The notes under the pieces are model-generated. The model was not told the DNA's origin, searched no databases, and was given only the letters and a program-made list of their open reading frames with translations. A DNA stretch of 64,000 bases from Desulfococcus multivorans (GTDB lineage Bacteria; Desulfobacterota; Desulfobacteria; Desulfobacterales; Desulfococcaceae), in the NCBI RefSeq assembly GCF_001854245.1, contig NZ_CP015381.1, positions 62,001 to 126,000 of the forward strand. Reading direction: 5' to 3'. How positions within the stretch are numbered: position 1 is the first letter of the stretch; each line of letters opens with the position of its first letter. Shown piece by piece: positions 58,901-61,663 of this stretch. The translations under genes and the position numbers were made by a program.

Positions 58901-59347
58901 GACGCACCTCCATGTGCTCCGTGTTTTTTCGATGTTGGTTTCGGCTCTTCCGCCGCTTGCCTTTGACACCAATATGGGGATCCGCTCGTCATCTTTCAAT
59001 ACGGTTGGTTCGATGGGTTTTTGATGGGGCTATCCTATAAAAACAGATGGCGATCAGCCTCGGAAGAAGGCAGAGATCAAAGGGATTGACATAACGAGAA
59101 TCTTCTTATAGTATCAACATACCAACCCTACATCTTTAATGATCATCGAATCGGCAATTGACGACGCGAACACGCTGGAATCGTTTCGATCGCCTGGGCC
59201 TTCAGGCGCGGCGATATCATGGTCTATGGAAAGGCGGCTCGGTCGATCGCACGGAACGAGCGCCCGTGTTCCGCCGGTCGTCGTTTTTGCGAAATGCACT
59301 GGCTGGAGCCGCCGATTCGGCAACCCATCAAAAAAAGGAGGAACGGA
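58901..59347. other. Divergent non-coding region with cytochrome-gene promoter
   Basis: 447 bp between micro-protein B and the cytochrome gene. It contains a good plus-strand promoter (59086-59114) and a leader of about 225 bases before the cytochrome start. No further gene is convincing. Confidence 0.6.
59086..59114 (+). promoter_or_regulatory. Sigma-70 promoter of the diheme cytochrome gene
   Basis: TTGACA at 59086-59091, a 17-bp spacer and TAGTAT at 59109-59114. Confidence 0.55.
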
Positions 59348-60751
59348 ATGAAACACAAAAACTTTAAGCCGTTCGTCGGCCTGATACTCATCGCGATTTT
59401 CGTGATCGGGGTAATGGGGATGGCGGATGCGGAGGAACCTTCAAAAACCAGTTATCTCCCCGTGGCCGTTGAAGAGCCCTTTCAGAAGATTTTCGATCGG
59501 ATGAAAGGCGCGAAAGCGGATGTCATGAAACGACAGATGAATCTGCTCGACGAACGGTACGACCTGAGCGATCGTCCGGCGGAGGGCGTCATGATGTCGG
59601 GAGGGAAAAAGGCGGTTCAGGAGGGTGTCCGCGTCCAACTCTCCGCTGACATGACCTGGGAAAAGTTCGCCCAGATGACGCCTGAAGAAATCAAGGAAAA
59701 AGGCCTTTGGCCCAAAGGTTTTTACCCGTTGCCGCATCCCAATCATGTCGAGGGCGGCATGGTTTTTCCGCAGTTCCATATCGACGAGATCAACAAGCAG
59801 GAAGGTCGAGACCTGACCCGATTCGATCTGGATTTTGACCTGCCGGACCATTTCCTGCCCGAGTTTCCCCCGCCGATTTATCTGACCACAAGACCGGATC
59901 TCGGTGATGTATCCCAGGGAAAAGTCGTCACCATCATGAACTACTATGAGCTGTTCAACGGCATCCTGAACCCCAAGCAGATCGAAGGTCTGCGATTGCT
60001 GGTAACGCCTTTCCCCCAGCAGCAGTTCAATCAGACGGAAGACCGACGGTCGGAGCTTCCCAGCAGAGGCGTTACCTGTTTCGACTGCCACGTCAACGGG
60101 CATTCGAACGGGGCGACGCATCTCGTGGGCGACATCCGACCCCAGGAGTTCCGGCATCGTCTGGATATCCCAACGCTGCGCGGCGTGAATGTTCAGCGCC
60201 TGTTCGGCTCTCAACGCGCATTGAAAACCATCGAGGACTTCACCGAATTCGAGCAGAGAGCCGCCTATTTCGACGGAGACCCGGTCATCGCGACGAAGAA
60301 AGGGGTCAACGTTCTGGAGCGCGGAAGCCAGGTCCATTTCATGGCCGAATTTCAGGCCCTGCTGGATTTTCCGCCTGCCCCGAAACTGGACCTTTACGGC
60401 AAGCTGGACCCTGAAAAAGCGACGGAATCCGAGCTCAGAGGCCAGGAACTCTTCTTTGACAAGGCCAAATGCGCCGTATGTCACCCGGCACCGTATTACA
60501 CCGACAACCTGATGCACAACCTGAAAGCCGAGCGTTTCTTCAAACCGCAGATGATCAACGGCCGCATGGCCTCCGCCGACGGACCGATCAAGACATTCCC
60601 GCTTCGCGGCATCAAGGACTCCCCGCCCTACCTCCATGACGGGCGACTGCTGACCCTGGAGGATACCGTGGAGTTCTTCAACCTGATTCAGGGCCTTGGC
60701 CTCACGGAACAGGAGAAGAAAGATCTGACCGCTTTCATGAGAGCGCTGTAA
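59348..60751 (+). CDS. Secreted diheme cytochrome c peroxidase/MauG-like protein
   Basis: A 467-residue protein with a signal peptide (VGLILIAIFVIGVMGMADA). Two heme c sites are visible: CFDCH near residue 245 and CAVCH near 377, and FPLRGIKDSPPYLHDGRLLTLEDTVEFFN is the C-terminal signature of the cytochrome c peroxidase/MauG family. It would act in the periplasm, reducing peroxide or oxidising a partner with electrons from a c-type cytochrome. It is somewhat longer than the ~330-residue bacterial peroxidases, with an extended N-terminal region. GGAGGA precedes the ATG. Confidence 0.87.
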   Translation: MKHKNFKPFVGLILIAIFVIGVMGMADAEEPSKTSYLPVAVEEPFQKIFDRMKGAKADVMKRQMNLLDERYDLSDRPAEGVMMSGGKKAVQEGVRVQLSADMTWEKFAQMTPEEIKEKGLWPKGFYPLPHPNHVEGGMVFPQFHIDEINKQEGRDLTRFDLDFDLPDHFLPEFPPPIYLTTRPDLGDVSQGKVVTIMNYYELFNGILNPKQIEGLRLLVTPFPQQQFNQTEDRRSELPSRGVTCFDCHVNGHSNGATHLVGDIRPQEFRHRLDIPTLRGVNVQRLFGSQRALKTIEDFTEFEQRAAYFDGDPVIATKKGVNVLERGSQVHFMAEFQALLDFPPAPKLDLYGKLDPEKATESELRGQELFFDKAKCAVCHPAPYYTDNLMHNLKAERFFKPQMINGRMASADGPIKTFPLRGIKDSPPYLHDGRLLTLEDTVEFFNLIQGLGLTEQEKKDLTAFMRAL

Positions 60752-60849
60752 TTCGGAAAATCAGGGGCCGCTCCATATTGATCCGGCTGATCCCATGATC
60801 ATCCCTGGTCAAACCAATGCAAACGGTCATTAGGTACGGACATTGAAAC

Positions 60850-60885
60850 AAAGGGCCTGCAGCCTGTGCTGCAGGCCCTTTGTTT
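60850..60885. terminator. Strong bidirectional hairpin terminator
   Basis: A perfect 13-bp stem (AAAGGGCCTGCAG at 60850-60862 with its complement at 60869-60881) and a 6-base loop, followed by GTTTT on the plus strand. It sits between the convergent cytochrome and selenoprotein genes. Confidence 0.85.
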
Positions 60886-60915: not shown

Positions 60916-61434
60916 TCAGGATTTCAGGGATGCGATCACTTGGTCGAGATCGGCGTGATCACCGGCGAACCGGTCGCGATGAGCAAACGTGATCTCTTCC
61001 CCCGGCCCGATGACAAACAGCCCCCCCTGCTGCCACAGATCACCGTCCGTGCTGCCTTGGCGAAATCCTTTTTTCATGGCGCCAAGCCCCTTCAAGAGAG
61101 CGGTCGGCCCCAGGGTCTCGAGCAATCCCCGTTTCAGTTTGAAGGCACGATAGGCTTCAAGCGTCGGGTCCACAACCATATCACCGTCAAATTGAAATTC
61201 CTGAACGAACCGCCGGGCGCTGTCGGGGGATCCGCTGCCGATGGCCACAAGGCCGATGGTCAACTGATCCAGAACGGGTTTGACCTTCATCAGGGCAGCG
61301 ACCTGCTGCCGGGCGAACATTCAGCCGAAATGTCTCAGAAAGGCCAGCACCACGCGTCGTTCAGTGAACAGCGCGGTGAGTTGAATCTTGCGACCGTCGA
61401 GATCGAGGACGGTCAAACCGGAGATTTTCAGCAT
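60916..61434 (-). CDS. Peroxiredoxin-like (PRXL2/AhpC-TSA) selenoprotein with in-frame UGA as Sec38
   Basis: The frame from 61320 (MFARQQ...) has no plausible N-terminus. Extending it through an in-frame TGA (61323-61321) gives a 172-residue protein that starts at the ATG 61434 with GGAGGT five bases upstream. The N-terminus (MLKISGLTVLDLDGRKIQL) and AFLRHFG are typical of AhpC/TSA-like proteins; the TGA falls exactly where HFGC-x-x-C has its first redox cysteine. The SECIS-like hairpin at 61294-61310 supports Sec insertion. Resolving Cys is Ala41. Likely a peroxide- or disulfide-reducing enzyme of the cytoplasm; substrate unknown. Selenocysteine is inferred, not shown biochemically. Confidence 0.85.
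61294..61310 (-). promoter_or_regulatory. Bacterial SECIS element
   Basis: GGCAGC (61310-61305), loop AGGTC and GCTGCC (61299-61294) form a perfect 6-bp stem. The loop starts 17 bases after the UGA and its second base is G, as in bacterial SECIS elements; it resembles the AGGUCU loop of E. coli fdhF. Confidence 0.8.
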
Positions 61435-61663
61435 CAGATACCTCCATTTGGATTTCACCGTGAGCTTGTTTTTCTCGGCATATCATGGAGAAGGCGGCAA
61501 TCTCACAGCCATGCGGCACAATCATATCTCATTATCTTCTATATAAATAAGCGAAATTCGCTTCGGGGTCAAAATGATCTTTTTCCAAACCTGAGCTTCA
61601 AAATCCCTTTACACGAGGTTCCGCTACACGAGGTTCCGCCTGGGGTCGTCGCCCGACAGGCCC

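Follow-up and report, generated by a model that had tools for sequence, protein, structure and literature searches.

Organization of the Locus

The window analyzed here, a 64,000-nucleotide stretch of the Desulfococcus multivorans genome, contains on its minus strand a gene whose reading frame is divided by a single TGA codon. The features of the locus are as follows.

60916 to 61434, minus strand: full coding sequence of 172 residues with the TGA taken as selenocysteine (Sec), for a SelL-related/AhpC-TSA_2 protein (translation, NF040769, PF13911)
61321 to 61323, minus strand: in-frame UGA, codon 38, the Sec position, at the redox-Cys site of the thioredoxin fold (sequence and aligned column)
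61312 to 61314, minus strand: codon of Ala41, where the partner Cys would sit (UxxA, not UxxC; alignment)
61294 to 61310, minus strand: putative SECIS hairpin GGCAGC-AGGTC-GCTGCC, with a 6-bp stem and the loop AGGTC at 61304-61300 (folding, alignment, codon constraint)
61440 to 61445, minus strand: Shine–Dalgarno sequence GGAGGT, with a 5-nt spacer to the ATG at 61434-61432 (sequence)
60916 to 61320, minus strand: conventional 134-residue open reading frame (ORF) from an internal ATG at 61320, immediately 3′ of the UGA (ORF list)
60846 to 60885, no strand assigned: perfect 17-bp inverted repeat past the stop codon and before the convergent gene at 59219-60751 (by eye)

The motif AFLRHFG immediately precedes the TGA at 61323-61321, and a single frame continues through to the stop TGA at 60918-60916, with one UGA in the frame besides that stop. 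An initial annotation made from the sequence had placed this TGA at a redox-Cys position, in one frame from the ATG at 61434 with GGAGGT 5 nt upstream, and all of this can be read in the sequence; the ORF list likewise agrees with its expectation that standard gene calling would return the 134-residue ORF from 61320. The replacement of the partner Cys by Ala was also correctly recognized, at residue 41, and the 172-residue protein as a whole contains no Cys. An open frame of comparable extent (at least 53 codons before and at least 134 after the TGA) surrounds 41 of the 2170 TGA codons in the six frames of the window, that of the gene itself included.

The inverted repeat past the stop codon, of which a terminator scan reports the inner part only, as terminator-like on the plus strand, is perhaps a two-way terminator. 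The convergent neighbor (59219-60751, plus strand) encodes two CxxCH motifs and has no Pfam match at 1e-5. The window also has FeS oxidoreductase and ETF genes in an order that agrees with dmul_C01000-etfA1B1. No sigma-70-type promoter was found by a promoter scan. Among 20 neighboring ORFs within the 1.5–3 kb flanks taken per locus in this and related genomes (4 of the 20 being without a Pfam match), no constant gene partner was seen, the neighbors varying by locus and including HMG-CoA lyase-like, NAD(P)H-hydrate repair, pyridine nucleotide-disulfide oxidoreductase, sigma-54 activator, and DUF362 genes, among others. Since the neighbors differ between loci, they were dropped as a guide to function.

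Family, Fold, and Putative Function

The protein lies narrowly above the cut-off of the NCBIfam profile NF040769 for SelL-related redox proteins (121.9 bits against 120), and matches the Pfam families AhpC-TSA_2 (PF13911; 86.4 bits against a gathering cut-off of 27) and PF00578 (33.1 bits against 26). The closest fold to its AlphaFold2 model (pLDDT 93.1, pTM 0.89) is that of human prostamide/PGF synthase (SelU3, which we take to be PRXL2B), with a Foldseek E-value of 5.3e-12 and a VIA-align Z-score of 22.1 over 158 aligned residues at an rmsd of 2.0; the other proteins in the fold comparison score at most 18.5, many peroxiredoxin structures lying between 16 and 18.5. The same human enzyme, 24–25% identical in these fold comparisons, is also the best sequence match in the PDB, and in the sequence alignment Sec38 falls on its Cys44 and Ala41 on its Cys47. 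In the model, Sec38 stands just before helix 1 (residues 39–57), where an attacking Cys usually lies. Thus, by the AlphaFold2 model, Foldseek, and VIA-align, the description "peroxiredoxin-like" was right as to fold.

True peroxiredoxins carry the motif PxxxTxxC/U (PMC13188914). In the alignment this motif is absent from the present protein, which has Ala (A31) at U-7 and His (H35) at U-3, and a peroxidase is therefore not supported by motif; "PRX-like2-type reductase" is a more cautious label. Accordingly, the proposal of a mono-Sec peroxidase or reductase stands as to the single Sec, in a protein without Cys, but not, by motif, as to the peroxidase. From fold and motif, the protein would be a thiol-dependent reductase with a single Sec, acting on peroxides, endoperoxides, or disulfides. 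A true one-Cys-type peroxiredoxin with Sec at the position of the peroxidatic Cys, which is compatible with decoding of the UGA as Sec, is possible but rather unlikely: the peroxiredoxin fold, with many peroxiredoxin structures among the good matches, and the PF00578 score speak for it, whereas the missing motif, with Ala and His in place of its Pro and Thr, and the greater nearness of the PGF synthase fold speak against it.

Conservation of the UGA Codon and the Protein

In a search of 58 related genomes, own genome included, 15 genomes were found to contain a match. Of the 17 matches, 15 (the present gene counted) have a single in-frame TGA, and the remaining two have no stop but Cys within the same motif. 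The alignment of Cys-containing homologues that had been proposed as a check shows Cys at the Sec column in more distant homologues. Relatives starting at the internal ATG without the AFLRHFG region, which would have spoken against a selenoprotein, were not what was observed; the relatives keep both this region and the UGA.

The phylum-wide search gave a match in 59 of 395 genomes. Its 67 matches comprise 47 with one TGA, 19 without a stop, and one with a TAA, figures to which distant groups (ULPC, UPFA/UPFC, and Cys forms) contribute and which are thus not a count for the clade of the present gene; the seven best matches (at least 179 bits) have one TGA each. For alignment, 23 sequences (alignment A2) were assembled from 12 of the 17 related-genome loci, all four loci of a further search, six of 30 phylum-search loci, and the window itself, leaving out L018 (identical with the window), L019 (from the same genome as L081), the Cys forms L031 and L034, and the distant L032. 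All 23 match NF040769 at an E-value of 1e-5. The TGA column is identical in 23 of 23 rows, and because the rows were chosen among TGA-bearing loci, only the sharing of a common column is informative.

The genus mate, an uncultured Desulfococcus, is 80% identical. Compared with it, dN/dS amounts to 0.127 for the 37 codons 5′ of the TGA and to 0.199 for the 134 codons 3′ of it; with low values on either side, purifying selection acts on the two halves as a single protein.

A tree of 35 bacterial sequences, the 23 of A2 and 12 further phylum-search loci, places the 13 closest UxxA/S sequences, that of the window included, in one group with support of 95/94. Another UxxA sequence, L033, is placed among UxxC rows, and the UxxA/S label requires at least two changes on the tree; in the simplest reading, the partner Cys would have been lost twice, with Sec retained. 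Among the sequences inspected, namely all 17 related-genome matches, 28 of the 67 phylum-wide matches, the window, and the gene represented by L032 and L099, none was a Cys form of the DLWQQGG clade.

Two side observations came from the same searches. One contig (G004:C30) bears two SelL-related TGA genes about 2.7 kb apart, L030 and L033, one with UIFC and one with UPVA. In addition, seven loci (L100, L101, L102, L104, L106, L108, and L109) form a separate TGA-bearing PRX-like group with the motifs RHLGULPC and WGP, which is apparently another Sec subfamily.

A Conserved Hairpin Downstream of the UGA

The 6-bp hairpin with an AGGTC loop was described correctly in the initial annotation, which set it 16 bases after the TGA; this distance holds for the apical loop (16 nt) and not for the stem, which begins after 10 nt. 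The bacterial SECIS (bSECIS) model calls for an apical loop 16–37 nt 3′ of the UGA with a G as the first or second base of the loop, a stem of 4–16 bp, and a minimum free energy (MFE) of at most −7.5 (PMC13188914). The present hairpin falls within these bounds, with its loop AGGUC at 16 nt, its 6 bp, and −15.3 kcal/mol for 56 nt. Folding of the single 56-nt sequence is not significant (z −0.39, with 60 of 200 shuffles folding equally well), so it was rejected as evidence for a SECIS and comparative tests were used instead. Hence, of the proposed check by folding, the fold of the single sequence gave no support, and the conserved pairing across 20 aligned sequences did.

Nowhere in the gene is synonymous conservation higher than at codons 42–47, which form the stem and rank first of 94 windows, and none of 20000 random draws was as high; this test used the 13 sequences of the closest clade in windows of five scored codons and ignored their kinship. 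The stem is absent in 3 of the 23 rows of A2 (L024, L027, and L028), and the alignment without these three (A3) was used for pairing. In its 20 rows, 94.2% of the stem cells are paired and nine cells are changed on both sides, each value reached by none of 500 shuffles, with the caveat that changes are shared among related rows. Examples of such double changes are AAGCAGC/GCTGCTT in L089 and GGCGGC/GCCGCC in L090. Two of the five pair measures lie within the range of the shuffles (59 of 500 as high for double-change pairs and 254 of 500 for further pair types), and five of the 20 rows take a different register in a 53-nt MFE fold. As judged from these alignments, the hairpin is under selection as RNA. 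Its agreement with the model, its conserved pairing, and the constraint on codons 42–47 uphold the earlier suggestion of a bacterial SECIS.

Decoding of the UGA Codon

The genes selA, selB, selC, and selD, for which a search had been proposed, are all present in the D. multivorans genome. Profile searches returned selA at 619 bits, selB at 361 bits, and selC at 77.2 bits, together with two selD genes, which score 374 and 372 bits and each contain a single in-frame TGA; the genome is therefore able to make Sec. The selD genes themselves (L068 and L069, at G000:C1:392680 and 2844887) each have a hairpin downstream of the TGA, and the five Sec genes that the genome paper, as excerpted, names (PMC5109826) include neither of them. 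A further AhpC-TSA frame in this genome (L117, G000:C1:3382842-3383141, plus strand) has a TGA at a GTSGU site and matches its Pfam profile only from position 30 onward; it could be an additional Sec gene whose start is unusual, or a gene in decay.

The genome also holds a second SelB (here SelB*; 274 bits summed), directly behind a tRNA-like gene whose score of 45.6 bits falls just short of the Rfam cut-off (47). This tRNA-like gene has, by eye, a UCA anticodon, an 8-bp acceptor stem, A1:U72, U73, and CCA, and tRNAs closely resembling it occur in G017 (L058) and G021 (L059). Two features outside the window are relevant here.

L035, 10443 to 12503 (G000:C1:1714442-1716502), minus strand: selC*-like tRNA and divergent second SelB, apart from the canonical selC and selB
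L075, 1495 to 3771 (G000:C1, about 1.621 Mb), minus strand: 758-residue fusion of a PLP-dependent (cysteine-synthase-like) domain and a second CysRS with DALR and anticodon-binding domains

A tRNA-Cys termed selC*, with the same tRNA features and accompanied by SelB*, is known from Desulfobacterales and Syntrophobacterales (PMC7609411), and selC* is described as inserting Cys at Sec UGA codons, with a posited role under selenium scarcity (PMC9437257). SelB* is 29% identical to the SelB of the same genome and retains SelB-wing_3 (PF09107, the last winged helix), with no match to SelB-wing_2; because of the retained last winged helix, SelB* might bind similar hairpins. No cysS* lies beside selB*. 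The two full-length CysRS matches of the genome are at 2.515 and 1.621 Mb, and the latter, about 92 kb from selB* and fused to the cysteine-synthase-like domain, differs from the published CysRS* in that its anticodon-binding domain is retained.

Reading of codon 38 as Cys, always or at low selenium, by way of the selC*-like UCA tRNA and SelB* therefore has to be weighed. In its favor are the presence of this pair in the genome with the published features, the reported insertion of Cys at Sec UGA codons by selC*, the possible binding of similar hairpins by SelB*, and the occurrence of a second SelB in 4 of the 13 genomes of the UxxA/S clade (G000, G017, G021, and G449). Against it, an intact SelB and no second one were found in seven of the 13 (G030, G448, G419, G126, G093, G189, and G344), which keep the UGA and the hairpin, and selC is above its cut-off in six of these seven, the exception being G419; the remaining two genomes (G001 and G447) gave no intact SelB, and several of the clade genomes are incomplete assemblies. 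The UGA and the hairpin appear alike in clade genomes with a second SelB and in those where none was found. Moreover, cysS* is not adjacent to selB*, and the unusual CysRS still has its anticodon-binding domain. Of the 11 clade genomes in which selB is intact, seven show no second selB but keep the UGA, and this favors Sec; for most of the family, no route other than canonical Sec insertion was seen, and reading of the UGA as Cys is judged improbable. A switch at residue 38 in Desulfococcus, with selC/SelB inserting Sec when selenium is available and selC*/SelB* inserting Cys under selenium scarcity, is rather unlikely, but were it true, one gene and one UGA would give two enzymes differing in reactivity, and the Cys-free protein would serve as a clean reporter of the switch. 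The coexistence of two UGA decoders in this genome, the second of the Cys type, makes the gene well suited to testing which of them acts at Sec codons.

It is hardly credible that the UGA is a true stop, with the gene broken or only the 134-residue ORF translated from the ATG at 61320: this conventional ORF is present and open frames around TGA codons are not rare in the window (41 of 2170), but the 37 codons 5′ of the UGA are under purifying selection, the upstream part and the TGA are kept in 15 of the 17 matches in related genomes, and the hairpin codons are synonymously constrained.

It is the comparative data—the kept TGA, the purifying selection on both sides of it, and the constraint on the hairpin at the RNA level—that lift a selenoprotein gene at this locus beyond chance. 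The selenoprotein reading of the initial annotation gains support from the conserved UGA, the hairpin, and the Sec machinery. Overall, it is very probable that the locus encodes a 172-residue thioredoxin-fold SelL-related/PRX-like2 (AhpC-TSA_2) selenoprotein with the UGA at codon 38 read as Sec; the frame-split gene most likely specifies one small redox protein with Sec as its sole reactive residue.

Proposed Mechanism

In the proposed mechanism, the ribosome would read the UGA at codon 38 as Sec; the codon, the hairpin, and the machinery are evident in the sequence, and the insertion itself is what we infer from them. The hairpin within the gene, with its loop 16 nt downstream of the UGA, would direct this step, being bound by SelB carrying the Sec-tRNA derived from selC. 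Sec38 would then attack an oxidized substrate, a chemistry and a substrate type suggested by the modeled fold. Because the protein has no second Cys or Sec, the intermediate of the cycle, a selenenic acid or mixed selenenyl-sulfide, would have to be resolved by an external thiol or by thioredoxin.

No signal peptide is apparent by eye, and the protein is therefore probably cytoplasmic. Three clade relatives (L020, L021, and L022) have N-termini that by eye resemble a lipobox (LTGC, AAGC, and ASGC), so the enzyme may be extracytoplasmic there.

Comparison with Known Selenoproteins

The present analysis adds a selenoprotein gene, with strong comparative support for its UGA and SECIS, to those of a model sulfate reducer. 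Five Sec genes, the peroxiredoxin dmul_C20060/70 among them, are named in the genome paper of D. multivorans (PMC5109826); the present gene is not one of the five named in that paper as excerpted. With dmul_C20060/70 it shares the peroxiredoxin fold and one Sec, but it is a separate gene: a TGA-bearing peroxiredoxin lies at 2.245 Mb, where dmul_C20060/70 is expected (a placement inferred from its gene number), and the present gene lies at 0.123 Mb.

Selenoprotein L proper has its Sec pair in the form UxxU. It is defined by two Sec residues per protein (PMC3473315), whereas the D. multivorans protein has one UGA besides its stop and reads UxxA. The relationship is with the SelL-related redox proteins of NF040769, whose profile is matched, but narrowly.

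PGF synthase has been named SelU3, and Sec forms of it occur in invertebrates (PMC3473315). The present protein has the same PRX-like fold, with the attacking Cys or Sec at the same place, a relationship known here from likeness of fold and sequence; it differs from the human enzyme in having Sec-x-x-Ala in place of Cys44-x-x-Cys47, without the partner Cys. A bacterial Sec family is thereby linked to the fold of the animal SelU/PGF synthase. Moreover, its clade retains Sec without a partner Cys, and no Cys form of it was seen among the sequences inspected in two genome searches.

The closest known kind is a family built on cd02970, which we take to be the PRX-like2 domain. In Table 1 of a 2026 review (PMC13188914), a predicted "Peroxiredoxin-like family protein (AhpC/TSA)" is assigned to cd02970 with the motif UxxS and the representative MDX2448127.1, and the entry cites Zhang and Gladyshev (2007) for an Olavius symbiont. 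The D. multivorans protein shares with that family the PRX-like2 domain, one Sec at the first motif position, and the missing partner Cys; it reads UMFA, and the clade member L086 reads UMFS, the comparison being with a family known by the review's description. As this UxxS family has already been predicted and L086 carries the corresponding motif, the present gene adds a member to a known predicted kind.
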